Assembly: GCF_050624435.1 (NCBI RefSeq)
Contig: NC_134536.1
Span: 7,816,758-7,880,757 of the forward strand
DNA from: Tenrec ecaudatus
Lineage: Eukaryota; Chordata; Mammalia; Afrosoricida; Tenrecidae
Reading direction: 5' to 3'
Length of the DNA stretch: 64,000 nucleotides
The notes under the pieces are model-generated. The model saw nothing but the letters and a program-made list of their open reading frames with translations. It was not told where the DNA came from and did not search any database. This document shows positions 92 through 62,625 of this stretch, in pieces. The stretch's first letter is position 1, and each line of letters begins with the position of its first letter. Made by a program: the position numbers and the translations under genes.

Positions 92-363
92 ATGCACCTC
101 TCCCCCACTCCACCCCTCAAAAAGAAAAAATGGGGGATCAAACTGAATTTTGCCAATTAGGGAGGTCAGGGGAGAGTGCATGGCAGTCACCACAAGGGAC
201 CTTCGTGGTTCTTTCGCTCACCTGCCTACAAAGGTTAGCCTAGGATCATCTGCCCGAAACTCCCAGTCTATCCTAGCGGTTTCCTGCCCCTGCCAGGCCC
301 AAGCGCGAGCGGCGAGCCCGGTACCAAGGACAGCGCCCCCTGGCCCCACCTGCTCTTGGGCTC

Positions 364-480
364 TTGGTGGGCGTGCCTAAAGGCGGGGCCAGTGGGCGTG
401 TCTGGAGGCCGGCCCAGGTCGCGGGGTGGAGCTTCCGAATGACTTGCTGCGTCCGCTCCCCCGGAAGCTCAGAGAGCGGC
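364..480 (+). promoter_or_regulatory. TATA-less promoter-like segment at island edge (candidate AIRN promoter)
   Basis: This segment contains a GC box (AGGCGGGGC near 383), two GTGGGCGTG-type KLF/Sp sites near 367 and 392, and two opposed ETS cores, CTTCCG near 432 and CCGGAAG at 461-467. There is no TATA box. These are the usual parts of a CpG-island promoter. Orientation is not fixed by the motifs; plus is chosen because the tandem repeats follow to the right, as they follow the Airn promoter in mouse. The transcription start is inferred, perhaps near 470-500. Confidence 0.5.
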
Positions 481-529
481 GGGCGATCGCGGCAAGCGGA
501 GCTGAACCAACTTAGCTGTGCACCCACGC

Positions 530-571
530 GGGCGATTCACCGCGAACCGCGGGCGATTCACCGCGAACCGC
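530..571. repeat. Perfect 21-bp direct repeat x2
   Basis: Two abutting identical 21-bp units starting GGGCGATTCACCGCG (530-550 and 551-571), followed by a decayed third (GGGCGTACCTCGGGCGAACC). They lie just downstream of the ETS-rich edge and are distinct from the 180-bp repeats further on. Confidence 0.9.
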
Positions 572-999
572 GGGCGTACCTCGGGCGAACCACCGAACCA
601 CCGATCGACAGATTGCGCTTCGCAGACTCGCATCCTCAGAGAACCGCGGAGGCCGGAGCCACCCTCCTCCATCCGATGGCTGGGCTCGGAACGCTGGTAA
701 CACCGGGCCTCTGTGGTCCACCAGGCGCAGGAGATGGGCGCGAGCCACGGTCAACGCGCCGGACCACCAAGCCACGCCGCGAGCTTTCACTCCGCGCAGC
801 CGAGCTGCCCCGGGTCCGCCTGGCGCCCAGCGCGGCGGCGGCGGCGGCGAGTCCTCACGCAGGCCCGTCGAGACCACGCGTGGACCCCTCGCTGCAGGCG
901 AACCTGCTCCAAGCCTGCCTCCCCTCCTCGGACCGCGACCCTCTAGCGGCCTCCCCGCGAGCGCGGCACACCACCACGGATCGCATTGCCGCCGCGCTC

Positions 1000-1990
1000 C
1001 GGCAGCCTCACCGGCCCAGACCACCTCATTACGGGGAACCGGGGGTGCCGCGGCCGCCTCATCGCGAAGGGCCCGCCATATCTCCCCGCACCAGCTCGCT
1101 CCGGGCGCCTCATTCCGAGCGCCCCACCGCCCGGACCGCTTCGATCCGTGCCCGACTCACCGCCCAGGAACGCCTCAGCGCCTCCCTCCGATTCCACCTT
1201 AGCGACCCGGACCTCCTCACTCCGGGGAACCTGGAACGCCACGACCGCCTCACCAGCTCGGGACGCCACCTGGGCCCGCCCAGCTTCCGATACCTCGCGG
1301 CGAGCAACCGGGAACGCCTGGGCCGCCTCATCGAGGCGGAACCGGAACCGCCCGAGCACCCCGGCCGCCTCACCCCGCCGAGCCCGCCACACCACCCCGG
1401 CGGCGGCGGCGGTGCTGCCGCGCCTCACCGCCTCTCTCCGAGCCCGCCGCGCCACGCGGGATGGCCACACCGGCCGGGCCCGCCCCAAGCCGAGCCCCCG
1501 CTCCCGCACTGGCACGCCGCGTCGCCGCGGGCCAATTCTCTGCGCGCCCGCCTCGCGGCCTTGGACCGCATCAACGGCCTGGAGAACCCCGCCGTCCAGG
1601 TCCAGGACCACCTCCCGCCGAGCCCGCCCTTCCGCCCGGGGCCGCTCCACCGCCTGGGTCTGCCGCTCTCGGAGCCCGCCTTGCCGCCCTGGATCTCCAC
1701 GCTGCCCCGCACCTCCTTGCTCCGAGCGCGCCTCAGCACCCTGGACCACCTCTCCCCAGGGAACCGGAACGGCGGCGGCTCCCCGGAGCGCCTCACCCCG
1801 AGCCCGCCGCCCTACGCCGAGCCGGCTCACCACGCGGCGCTGCCCCCCTCGGGGGAGCCCAGAGTGCCTCACTGGCCCGGGCCGATGCACCGCCCCGACC
1901 GCCTCACGGCCACGCTTCGGCCCTCTCACCGCGCCGCGCCGCAGCACTTGGGCTACCGCGACCACCTGGGCCGCCTGGCCGGGGCCGGCC
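1000..1990. repeat. Degenerate ~180-bp tandem direct repeats in the CpG island
   Basis: The landmark GAGCCCGCC recurs with its AGCCCGCC part starting at 1441, 1621 and 1801, exactly 180 bp apart, and once more at 1381. A second landmark (CCGCACCTCCTTGCTCCGAGCGC-like) occurs near 1085, 1525 and 1705, and a third (GGACCACCTC then GGGGAACC) near 1018, 1208 and 1743. These give about five diverged copies. The 180-bp period is a multiple of 3, so stop-free frames persist across copies. Mouse Airn's island also has tandem direct repeats downstream of its promoter. Exact copy boundaries need a dot plot. Confidence 0.75.
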
Positions 1991-2262
1991 CGCTGCCTCC
2001 TCGGGGCGCCGGCTTCCCAGAGCACCCCCCGCCGAGCCCAGACGAGCCCGCAGCCCTGCCGCCCGAGTGAGCCACCACCACTGCCACTCCACCTGCCAGG
2101 TGGCCTCGCGCCACGGCCAGGTGCCCCAACAGGTCCTTCAGCGCATCCCTTCCCCCCCTCCACACCTGAGCCCGCGCCGCCCACCCACCCCACCCCCGCC
2201 CGCATGCCCCCAGGCTGCTTTCCTTGCCAGATGGGCCCTCGCATTATTAAACCCATTTTCTT

Positions 2263-3086
2263 GGCCACCCTCTCTCTCTAACCTTGCCCCTGGGCTCTTT
2301 ATAGCGACACTCTTTCCAAAGACTTCCGTTCCCGCGCCCGCTGGCTTCCCCTCTAAAGGTCCCTCCTGGCACCTGACTGCCCTTAGGCCACGGCGCCCCG
2401 GGGCTCTATTCCCTCAGCTCCAAGTCTTGGTTTAACTGTCACCTCCTTAGTGGACTCATTCCACTTAATACCCCGCGTTTCACAAAGTTCCATTATTTTT
2501 CAAGTCTTAACACATACTTTTTCTAGTCATATTATATATATATATATATATATATATAAACCAATCTCGCTCCTCTCGCTCTCTCCCCCACACACGTTCT
2601 TGTGAGCTTCTAGCACTCCTGATTCGGAACGTCTTTTTAAAAAAATATATATATATATATAGCATTAATTATATTCTAGCATAGTCGTGTGTTTGTAACA
2701 CACTATACCCACCGCGCCAGAATGTAAGCTCCCTGACTGAAATGAATTTTTGTTTCTTTTGGCAATTGATTCATTTCCAGTTTTGAACAGTGCCTAGATA
2801 TAAGAGGCACTCAAATATTTGCTATAGTTAACGTGAATATTCCGTATTAGCTGTTTTATGTATCTTTTTTAGAAATTTTGAACCTACTATATCAAAATAT
2901 ACACTCCATTGGGCTATTTGCCTACAGCTTAGATTGTTGTAGCATATTTTCCATAATGATTCTACGTTAAAAAATAGTGTACAAATATCTATACATCTAG
3001 TACTTATTCCATTGGTGATATTCATAAAACTAGGTCATGTATTATGGTGCAGTATATTACTTCAAATAACCCTTCTATATTAAGGG
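2263..3086. other. IGF2R intron 2, AT-rich, no recognised element
   Basis: A GC-poor stretch directly after the CpG island with two TA-dinucleotide runs (near 2533 and 2645). I see no exon, promoter or named repeat in it. Confidence 0.6.
2533..2558. repeat. (TA)n microsatellite
   Basis: A run of about thirteen TA dinucleotides; a shorter one follows at about 2645-2660. Confidence 0.9.
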
Positions 3087-24650: not shown

Positions 24651-25594
24651 GTGCCACACACTAAAACTTCAGCTCCACTTAGAAGGGCCTTCCTTTCATT
24701 CTGCGAAGGAACGTGCGAGCGCCCGGGGACCTCGTCGGGCTCACCAGAGGCTGGCTGTTCGCTACTCTTTCAAAACTTTTCACTAGGTTTCCATTTTTTT
24801 TCGAAAGTTTAGAAAAGAAAGGAAAGCTTGGATTTCCGGTCATCCCAAATCGTCCCGCGAAGGCGAGTCACACAATTCACAGGACTGGAAGTTCCCGCCG
24901 CGTGACCCAGCCAGCACTCCGTGGGGTGAGCCGCGCGGGTTCCCAGGGCGAAGGCTCCACAGGCAGCCCAATCACCCCGACACAATGACATCATGTGAGC
25001 AACTAGACAGGAAGCTATGACTGGAGAGGTGACGGCTGAAATCTTGACAGCAGAATAGGGGATAACCACCACCCATTCCCCCAATTTAAAAAAAAAAAAA
25101 AACGTTTTTTGAGTCGTCTACTGCAGAGAAGCCCTCCACGACTTTAAAAAGAAACTGGAACCCCACATGGAGGAAATCACTCAGAAATGAAAGCAAACCC
25201 AGCCGGCCCCAAGCCATGGTGGGCTGCCACTCACTGGTAAGTCTCTCCCAAGCCCAGGGACCCCACCCAAGCCCCTCGCTGGTGGGATGAGGACGGAGCA
25301 AAGACGCCGTTCCTGCCCCCTGCAACTTTCCCCGGCGTGCTGCGGACTGCGCTCGGGCTGTCTGTCACCGGGCTGCGACAGGACAGCGCACCGAGCGGCC
25401 CCTCACTTAGGGACAGCTACAAGTGGTCCGGGCCAGAGGGCGTGGGGAGCCAGCACCCCACGCGCGGAAGCAGAGGAACCTCGGTCGCGGCTCCCTGGCC
25501 AGCACGCGGCCAACTTTCCCTGCCGGGGTGGGGTGAGAAATGGACCGGGACCAGCGCGGGACCCCCGGGTCGAGCGCGGCCGCCGACGACCCAC

Positions 25595-25737
25595 CTGCAC
25601 AGCTCCGAGAAGCCGGCGCCCTGGGCCGCGGCGCCTGGGCCCCGCGGGCCGCCGATCGCCGAGACGAACAGCAGCAGCTGCAGCAGGAGCGGGGCGCGCA
25701 GCGGGCGAGCGGCGAGCGCGGGCCGGGCGGCCACCAT
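25595..25737 (-). CDS. IGF2R: IGF2R exon 1 coding part (signal peptide)
   Basis: Minus-strand ATG at 25737-25735 in good context (GCGATGG). Forty-seven codons plus two bases end at 25595 with a donor reading TGC AG|GTGGGT. The product starts MVAARPALAARPLRAP, then a leucine-rich core (LLLQLLLFVSAIGG), and ends GAGFSELC with serine completed by exon 2. It is a classical signal peptide: arginine-rich n-region, hydrophobic core and an Ala/Gly-rich cleavage region near residue 40. The human receptor has a similar arginine-rich start, LLLLQLLLLVAA core and a PELCS end. It targets the receptor into the endoplasmic reticulum as a type I membrane protein. The start is chosen because it gives this signal peptide and no in-frame ATG precedes it. 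Exon 2 lies 18.8 kb away; later exons are outside the window. Confidence 0.95.
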
Positions 25738-25907
25738 CGCTGCGGGCTCGGGGCGGCCGCGGCCGGGACGGGGTCGCGCCGCCAGGGCGGAGGCGGTGGT
25801 GGTGCGGAGACGCTGGAGCTGCGGAGCGGCAGGAGCGGCGGCGACGGCAGCTGCGAGCGGCTCGGCTGAGCTCGGCGGCGGCGGCGGCGGCTACCCAAGA
25901 ACCGCGC

Positions 25908-25998
25908 GTCACGTGAGCACGCGGCGCCGCCCCCTTCCGTCACGTGACCGTCTTGTTCAGGTGATCCTGGCGCTCTTGCCCGGGGCGCGTCACGTGAA
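25908..25998. promoter_or_regulatory. Three GTCACGTGA boxes in IGF2R promoter
   Basis: GTCACGTGAG at 25908-25917, GTCACGTGAC at 25939-25948 and GTCACGTGAA at 25989-25998, 31 and 50 bp apart, between 170 and 265 bp upstream of the start codon. All share GTCACGTGA, matching the TFEB/TFE3 CLEAR consensus (GTCACGTGAC) found at lysosomal genes and also the USF/MYC E-box. IGF2R delivers lysosomal enzymes, so CLEAR control is plausible. Sites are seen; the factor is inferred. Confidence 0.8.
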
Positions 25999-26169
25999 GC
26001 CTGGCACTGCGCCCGGGTGGCTGGGCGGGCTGGCCCAGGTGTGAGCGGGAGGCACGAGGGCCAGATTGTCCGCCCAGCCTCAGTTTCCCCTCCGCTGCTC
26101 CCATGGGGTTATCACAGGAGCTCTTCCCAACATAGAATCACCATTTCCCATCTACCAGGTACCGCAGAA

Positions 26170-61196: not shown

Positions 61197-62625
61197 ACCC
61201 TTGTTGTTGGTGTCCTCGGGTGTCCTCGACTCCGTTCCCACCGACAGCGACCCTACGCACAACAGAGGAAACACTGCCCGGTGGTCCTGTGCCCTCCTCA
61301 CCAGTGTTCCTGTGCCTGAGTGCATTGTTGCAGCCACCGCGTCAGTTCATCTGGTCAGGGCTTCCCTCTTTTTCACCGCTCCTCTGCTTTATCAAGCACG
61401 ATATCGTTCGCCAGGGGCTGGTCTTTCCTGACAACGTGTCCAAAGAGTGGAACTTTCTCACCATCCTTGCTTCTGAGGAGCGCTCTGGCCAAGAGTGACT
61501 GCTTGGTTCTTTTTTGTTGTTGTTGTTTTTTGTTTTTTTAACAATTTATTGGGGCTCATACAATTCTTATCACAGTTCATACATATACATACATCAATTG
61601 TATAAAGCACATCTGTACAGTCTTTGCCCTAATCATTTTTTCTCCTCTTTTCTTTTTTTACATTTTATTAGGGACTCATACAACTTTTATCACCATCCAT
61701 ACATATATATGCATCAATTGTATAAAGCACATCCATACATTCCCTGCCCCAATCATTCTCAAGGCATTTGCTCTCCACTTAAGCCCCTTGCATCAGGTCC
61801 TCTTTTTTTTTCCCCTCCCTCCCCTTTCCCCCCTCCCTCATGTGCCCTTGGTAATTTATACATCGTTATTTTGTCATATCTTGCCCTATCCGGAGTCTCC
61901 CTTCCCCCCTTCTCTGCTGTCCCTCTCCCAGGGACTGCTTGGTTCTTTGGGTAGTCCGTGGCCCTCTCCGTGTTCAGCACCAGCTCCACGATCCAAACAC
62001 ACTGATTCTTCTTTGTGCTTCTTTCTTCATTGTCCAACTTTCCCGTGGACATGTGGTGATTGAAAGTGCCCTGGCTGGGGTCAGGCCCACCTTGGTCTCA
62101 AAGTAATTCCCTTGTTTTTCAACACTCTAAATGCAATGTGTCTTTTGATTTCTTGACTGCTGCTTCCATGAGCATCGATTGTGGCTGTAAGGCAAAATTC
62201 TTGGAGACTCTGATCTTCTCGCCATTTATCATAATTGTCGCCTGTTGGTCCTGTTGTGCGGATGTGGGTCTTCTTTACATTGAGCTGTATCCACACGCAT
62301 CTTCATCAGCAAGTGTTTCAAGTCCTTCTCACTTTCAAGCAAGGCCAATTGTGTCATCCTCATAGTCCTGGCAGGTTGTTCATAAGCCCATCAATCCTCC
62401 CGCTTCATTCTTCTCCGGGGAATCCAGCTTCCCTGGTGATTCGCTCAGCAGACAGCTTGGACAAGGATGGTGAGCTGACACGCACCTTTTCTCATTTTAA
62501 ACCATGCGGTATCCTCTTGCTCTGTTTGCACACTTGTCTCTGGATTCGTGTACAAGTTGTGCCCGAGCACAAGGAAGTGTTCTGGAATTCCCATTCTTCT
62601 CAAGGCTATCCCACGCTCATTAGCT
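61197..62625 (-). mobile_element. RTE, minus, long 3' copy split by an L1
   Basis: The longest collinear RTE piece here, from the 3' end GTCCTCGGGTGTCCTCGAC through CTTCTGAGGAGCGCTCTGG. It continues after the L1 at 61513-61932 with GTAGTCCGTGGCC, TTGTCCAACTTTCCCG, TGTCTTTTGATTTCTTGACTG, ACATTGAGCTGTATCC and TTCTGGAATTCCCATTC. It covers the C-terminal third of ORF2; no frame is open. Confidence 0.9.
61513..61932 (-). mobile_element. L1 insertion with two tandem 3' ends, one 16-bp TSD
   Basis: Bounded by GACTGCTTGGTTCTTT at 61497-61512 and 61933-61948, interrupting the RTE. In minus sense it is an L1 3' UTR (61932 to about 61660) ending ...CCCTAATAAAATG and an A tract. A second, shorter L1 3' end (about 61650 to 61513) follows, ending ...CCCCAATAAATTG with its own A tract. 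One target duplication encloses both. Confidence 0.88.

Follow-up and report, generated by a model that had tools for sequence, protein, structure and literature searches.

Does IGF2R of a tenrec, an afrotherian, carry in its second intron the imprint control element that is reported there in other eutherians, and is an antisense AIRN-type RNA made from it? The window considered here consists of 64,000 nucleotides of the forward strand of the Tenrec ecaudatus contig NC_134536.1 (positions 7,816,758 to 7,880,757, assembly GCF_050624435.1); all coordinates are those of the window, with negative numbers lying to its left. It opens with a CpG island, placed at 290–2100 in a preliminary description and interpreted there as the tenrec counterpart of the intron-2 element, that is, of differentially methylated region 2 (DMR2), and of the AIRN promoter. 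The presence of the island was confirmed, and a sliding criterion makes it slightly larger (Table 1). With moderate confidence, we identify it as the putative tenrec version of DMR2, which would make it an afrotherian member of the family and, probably, a new case of an already known kind. The features that probably carry this identification are synteny, a promoter-like edge, distal repeats, an excess of ZFP57 motifs, and the fact that 264 kb contain only one other strong island. Synteny makes it the best reading of the island, and the interpretation as a whole is supported in part.

Exons 1 and 2, on which the preliminary description had relied, do fix the gene as IGF2R. Both lie on the minus strand; the splice sites of exon 2 are canonical, and the phase is consistent, the coding lengths counted by eye being 143 bases (exon 1) and 140 bases (exon 2). 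A match to exon 3 is situated to the left of the window (−4763 to −4912) and is followed by further exons in a collinear series, the query being the human protein. Farther along the same strand there are 16 matches to the CIMR domain (PF00878), and the neighbouring genes, described at the end, agree with the assignment. Given the positions of the three exons, the island lies within intron 2, which is about 11.4 kb long. It starts 4.1 kb and ends 6.4 kb past exon 2, and it spans 23.2–25.5 kb from the ATG, in agreement with the distance of about 23.6 kb given earlier. The antisense direction at this locus is the plus strand; hence a plus-strand transcript of the island would be antisense to IGF2R.

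The bounds of the island were set by a 200-bp sliding criterion. Its core, 290–2100, contains 240 CpGs and has a GC content of 0.746 and an observed-to-expected CpG ratio (o/e) of 0.99. In 264 kb of contiguous sequence of the same genome, 17 runs of at least 400 bp satisfy a loose island criterion, and o/e is at least 0.9 in only two of them, the intron-2 island and the island at the IGF2R promoter, used as a within-locus control; the next best value is 0.86. A search of the island DNA against the tenrec genome (3.92 Gb) yielded no second copy, the sole match being the island itself. A (TGA)15 microsatellite (46–91) is found a short way to the left of the island.

The internal organization of the island resembles that of the mouse element. 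At the promoter-like left edge, GGGCGTG, which we take to be a KLF-type box, occurs in each of two 25-bp repeats, followed by CCGGAAG, presumably an ETS-type site. A CTCF-core-like AGGGGGCGC precedes them. Tandem repeats, mentioned in the preliminary description, are present: there is a perfect 21-bp repeat and, not specified in that description, a degenerate array with a 180-bp monomer. The self-alignment at lag 180 (1427–1713 against 1607–1896) has 61% identity and a score of 92.9 bits, compared to at most 37.9 bits in 60 order-2 and at most 36.3 bits in 60 order-3 shuffles of the island. Further repeat lags include 52, 78, 128, 232, 284 and 360 bp.

The mouse DMR2/Airn island is also situated in IGF2R intron 2, and there, too, a promoter-like edge is followed by the island and then, in its distal half, by imperfect direct repeats, which form classes of 172–180 bp and 30–32 bp with three copies each (PMC3291542; papers are cited here by PMC number, for the passages concerned). 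The likeness of the long monomers, 180 bp in about three copies in the tenrec and 172–180 bp in three copies in the mouse, is striking. On the other hand, the 30–32 bp class was not found in the tenrec island, whose lags include 21 and 52 bp. The claimed match to the mouse element holds for the position, the promoter-like edge and the repeats, whereas the size agrees only loosely: about 2.2 kb, nearly twice the mouse value of about 1.24 kb, the latter composed of 1129 deleted and 106 remaining bp (PMC3291542). The tenrec island also differs in being as CpG-dense as promoter-type islands, in being C-rich on the Airn strand, and in having no early plus-strand splice donor.

Even mouse and human are said to show no sequence conservation in their imprint-control islands (PMC3291542), and orthology is therefore judged here mainly from synteny. 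The intron-2 regions of horse and dog share the position with the tenrec island. Comparison of the DNA itself with DMR2 of other mammals covered one 14-base fragment of the horse intron-2 DMR (PMC12189881), to which GGGCGCTGTCC, on the minus strand at 338–328, gives an 11-bp match. A match of this length was reached by 0.8% of 1000 order-2 shuffles. As GGGCGCTGTCC overlaps the CTCF-like site, the match may be due to a factor site common to both species, not to descent.

For the analysis of imprint-type signatures, control islands were collected from 30 loci with NRF1 motifs, taken from 84 forward and 71 reverse matches. Fifteen loci had no island at the motif and four were duplicates, leaving 11 controls, whose promoter status is assumed. 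Repeats and periodicity were compared on the eight longer ones, leaving out L028, L044 and L045. The NNAT island was taken as an imprinted control. MEST was considered as a second imprinted control, but the piece taken held no island of at least 300 bp, having probably missed the promoter, and it contributes nothing. Apart from this, a possible NNAT retrocopy was seen at C109:63395672-63395908; it is intronless and stop-free over all 81 residues (76% identity to the human query), and is separate from the NNAT copy split into exons on C96.

The ZFP57 hexamer TGCCGC occurs eight times in the core (4.4 per kb), compared to a mean of 3.1 occurrences in 300 shuffles (P = 0.010); for the full island P is 0.033 (300 shuffles), and the excess is modest in both cases. 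The density is 0–2.4 per kb in the 11 controls, 1.1 in the IGF2R promoter island, and 3.3 in the NNAT island (P = 0.047). The DMR of human and macaque resembles the tenrec island in its position in intron 2 and in the presence of ZFP57-type sites, with the difference that a single shared site is described there (PMC4417110) compared to eight hexamers here.

Several observations weigh against the DMR2 identification. Relative to promoter islands, a lower CpG density has been reported for imprint-control islands, as a tendency rather than a strict rule (PMC3291542), and this is not what is seen here. With 11.7 CpGs per 100 bp (13.3 in the core), the island ranks third of 14, behind the IGF2R promoter island (12.3) and one control (12.0); the values of the 11 controls range from 5.0 to 12.0. 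There is no trace of decay of methylated CpGs, the TG/CA o/e being 0.98 (1.00 in the core). The CpG spacing of 8–10 bp, linked to DNMT3A (PMC3291542), was tested in the island and is absent (P = 0.29). The repeats by themselves are not diagnostic of an imprint-control island, as high repeat scores were also obtained for two of the eight controls (z of 10.2 and 24.9; 18.3 for the island), with the score of control L036 exceeding that of the island. To these one should add the size difference from the mouse, the DNA comparison limited to one 11-bp match, and the splice donors and strand skew considered below.

An ordinary, never-methylated intragenic promoter, cryptic or tissue-specific, that happens to occupy the DMR2 place in a lineage with no imprinting of IGF2R would account for a CpG density and o/e among the highest compared, for the lack of a TG/CA excess, and for the lack of CpG periodicity. 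It would also be compatible with the variation of IGF2R imprinting among eutherians (PMC4417110, PMC6162910). However, it leaves aside the excess of ZFP57 motifs and the repeat layout. Moreover, the TG/CA test has little power, since it does not mark the imprinted NNAT island either (o/e 0.99), and intron-2 islands are maternally methylated in several eutherians, reportedly even where the expression of IGF2R is not imprinted (PMC6162910). We consider such a promoter unlikely, though not negligibly so.

If the island is DMR2, a separate question is whether it acts as the AIRN promoter, as the preliminary description had also proposed, with a start near 470. Apart from the promoter-like edge, this part of the claim found no support. 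No good plus-strand 5' splice site was found near 470, the best donors within 470–2100 scoring 5.4 and 5.1; the same weight table gives 9.9 for the donor of IGF2R exon 1 and 8.9 for that of exon 2. The minus strand has strong donors, two of them within the island (1161 and 1254) and one next to it (222). Mouse Airn transcripts share a 5' splice site that lies early, 53 bp past the start. Still, the missing donor is weak evidence against AIRN, because 95% of mouse Airn is unspliced (PMC3291542).

The second point is the strand composition. Over the island, the plus strand, which would be the AIRN strand, is C-rich, with a GC skew of −0.225. Among 524 overlapping windows of 2230 bp in the 264 kb, −0.22 is reached in five: three lie on the island, the other two near 85 kb. 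The sign is opposite to that suggested by the mouse Airn island, and skew is not known to define the AIRN family. A high-skew, R-loop-forming region has been described downstream of the mouse Airn start (PMC6442632). The skew is better taken as a difference than as a refutation of AIRN, since the skew rule does not hold at two other islands, those of the IGF2R promoter and of NNAT, where the skew of the plus strand is positive (+0.04 and +0.03, respectively) although the genes are on the minus strand. The scan of the window against Rfam at the gathering score gave no match. A scan for bacterial-type promoters was set aside as not meaningful for a mammal.

Third, an intron-2 island does not imply AIRN, as follows from three other species. 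In the dog, IGF2R is imprinted and AIRN is given as absent, the browser track having no CpG island in that intron (PMC12309131, in the passages concerned). In the horse, a gametic DMR in intron 2 is accompanied by a reported absence of AIRN (PMC12189881, likewise). In the macaque, rapid amplification of cDNA ends gave no AIRN, and yet a monoallelic transcript across intron 2 was amplified (PMC4417110). The tenrec island may, then, be a DMR2 of the dog or horse type, a germline DMR with no antisense macro-RNA, IGF2R being controlled otherwise or not at all. The donors, poor on the plus strand and strong on the minus strand, together with the C-rich AIRN strand and the two precedents, would fit this form of DMR2. 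The promoter-like motifs at the left edge point the other way, and the argument from the missing donor is weakened by the mostly unspliced mouse RNA. We regard this special case as possible, if on the unlikely side. The chances that an AIRN-type RNA is made from the island are about even. The role of AIRN promoter is unproven beyond a plausible promoter-like edge.

The strong minus-strand donors (1161, 1254 and 222) and the G-rich minus strand could also be explained by an alternative IGF2R promoter in the sense direction, located at the right edge of the island, where a minus-strand TATAAA begins at 2303, and reading through the island to exon 3. However, the argument from composition suffers from the failures of the skew rule at the IGF2R promoter and NNAT islands, and a protein starting there would lack the signal peptide of IGF2R. 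Such a promoter is highly improbable.

The only observation that is not explained by a plain DMR2 is a long open reading frame (ORF) on the AIRN strand. No stop codon interrupts its frame from 277 to 2067, a stretch of 597 codons, which is longer than expected (P = 0.017 and 0.023 at orders 1 and 2, with 300 shuffles each), and 543 codons remain from the first methionine. The ORF product is identical to a 543-residue database protein, for which the window is listed as the source. Over 439–2067, the GC content of the three codon positions is 0.775, 0.656 and 0.816. The range of these values, 0.160, narrowly exceeds all 1000 shuffles of 100-bp blocks (maximum 0.158), and the range over 277–2067 is reached by none of the shuffles of orders 2, 3 and 4 (400 for each order). 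The signal is uneven: the range is weak at 439–1164 (0.05), clear at 1001–1426 (0.14) and strong at 1427–2067 (GC of 0.80, 0.64 and 0.91 at the three positions), so that codon-like periodicity extends from about 1001 to the stop codon and vanishes past it. None of the eight control islands demonstrates such periodicity. When the repeat copies are compared in frame, 99 of 205 residues agree in the ORF frame, compared to 82–92 in the five other frames. Third positions of the copies diverge more than expected when ten overlapping alignments are pooled (P = 0.003), although the excess is not significant for the lag-180 alignments alone (P = 0.147).

These features would be expected if the island belonged to an intronless coding gene nested in IGF2R on the AIRN strand. 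There are reportedly imprinted islands in retrocopies nested in host introns, for instance, PPP1R26P1 in RB1, and the likeness to them consists in a CpG island within a host intron and a long open frame; the difference is that neither a parent gene nor a relative was found for the ORF. Indeed, no homologue except the window's own protein is present among the best 7,989 and 7,991 candidates scored, out of 5.77 billion proteins. The ORF protein has no second copy in the tenrec genome, and it has no match in Pfam or in PDB at E of 10; the ORF and three other frames have no match in Pfam at E of 0.001. An origin of the ORF as a retrogene was rejected, as neither DNA nor protein revealed a second copy in the genome. 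Further, three other frames are open as well, for 410–444 codons, 14 of the 25 repeat lags are not divisible by 3, the start contexts look weak, and the periodicity is weak in the first part of the ORF. Hence a nested coding gene seems quite improbable, and the ORF is probably non-coding, resulting from repeat expansion with a triplet phase in a C-rich island. It is most improbable that both descriptions apply at once, with the tenrec AIRN-strand transcript being an intronless orphan mRNA of up to 543 codons and its CpG island being the imprint control element. Were this the case, what serves other placentals as a non-coding AIRN promoter would be either what remains of a nested gene or the seed of one.

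To return to DMR2, the following sequence of events may be suggested. Transcription of IGF2R across the island in the oocyte would lead to methylation of the island, as in the mouse. ZFP57-type sites, seen here as motifs, might bind their factor and so maintain the methylation on the maternal allele. The paternal island would stay unmethylated and could serve as a promoter. Its plus-strand product, if made, would extend across exon 2 and, at a distance of 25 kb, the IGF2R promoter, and might lower the expression of paternal IGF2R.

The list of known cases in the preliminary description, rodents, carnivores and ungulates, was incomplete. The intron-2 DMR has been reported also in human, macaque, pig and horse (PMC6162910, PMC4417110, PMC12189881). 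The reports, in the passages cited, concern rodents, primates, carnivores and ungulates. For the horse, methylation data come from tissues and gametes (PMC12189881), the tenrec island being known from its sequence. It was rightly stated that marsupials imprint IGF2R without an intron-2 island; the DMR that they use is situated in intron 12 and has an antisense RNA of its own, ALID (PMC6162910). The common feature is a CpG island within IGF2R; the intron is different. Intron 12 of the tenrec gene, at approximately −26771 to −28094 by our own exon count, contains none of the 17 island-like runs of at least 400 bp, and elsewhere to the left of the window there are only weaker runs (o/e 0.58–0.76).

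An afrotherian copy in the same intron and with the same layout would place the island in the last common ancestor of placental mammals, an inference that depends on orthology and methylation being demonstrated. It would also bear on whether the imprinting of IGF2R arose once or twice in therians, two models discussed in PMC6162910. The literature search for afrotherian and xenarthran IGF2R yielded no title on an afrotherian IGF2R island among the matches listed, and an earlier mention is possible. In the accessible text of a paper on the tenrec placenta (PMC12328210), IGF2R occurs in the reference list only and AIRN is not mentioned.

Table 1. Features of the IGF2R intron-2 island and of the adjoining locus (window coordinates)
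Feature	Position	Strand	Remarks
CpG island in IGF2R intron 2, candidate DMR2	261-2490	.	261 CpGs, GC 0.72, o/e 0.95
CTCF-core-like AGGGGGCGC, left edge of island	341-333	-	
Promoter-like edge: two 25-bp repeats, each with GGGCGTG (369, 394), and CCGGAAG at 461	367-467	+	
ORF without known relatives, 543 codons from first Met	439-2070	+	coding status doubtful
21-bp tandem repeat, 2.4 perfect copies	527-576	+	
Imperfect repeat pair, 958-1061 and 1147-1252	958-1252	+	70% identity
Imperfect 180-bp direct repeats, about 3 copies, distal half of island	1427-1966	+	three-copy alignment
ATTAAA, possible poly(A) signal	2246-2251	+	about 175 bases past the ORF stop
TATAAA, right edge, possible sense promoter	2298-2303	-	IGF2R-sense direction
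IGF2R exon 2	6773-6634	-	canonical splice sites; ends counted by eye
IGF2R promoter CpG island, within-locus control	25231-26140	.	112 CpGs
IGF2R exon 1, coding part	25737-25595	-	ATG at 25737, donor after 25595; counted by eye

The genes around the locus follow the order MAS1, IGF2R, SLC22A1-type. MAS1 is located 49 kb upstream of the IGF2R ATG. The top PDB match of its product is the Proto-oncogene Mas, and the protein is 92% identical to that of Echinops telfairi, 85% to that of the golden mole Chrysochloris asiatica, and 83% to that of the aardvark, values that, for this one protein, point to a tenrec other than Echinops. Cytochrome b gave 25 matches on numbered contigs; they were taken for nuclear copies and set aside. 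The SLC22A1-type gene lies downstream of IGF2R on the same strand; the query by which it was identified was SLC22A1 alone. Beyond MAS1, at 126461–127453 of the plus strand, there is a second open frame that by eye looks like a Mas-related receptor. Some interspersed repeats resemble AfroSINEs. Finally, a 120-bp tandem repeat in 1.9 copies, with a T-rich stretch at its start, is found at 61528–61757.

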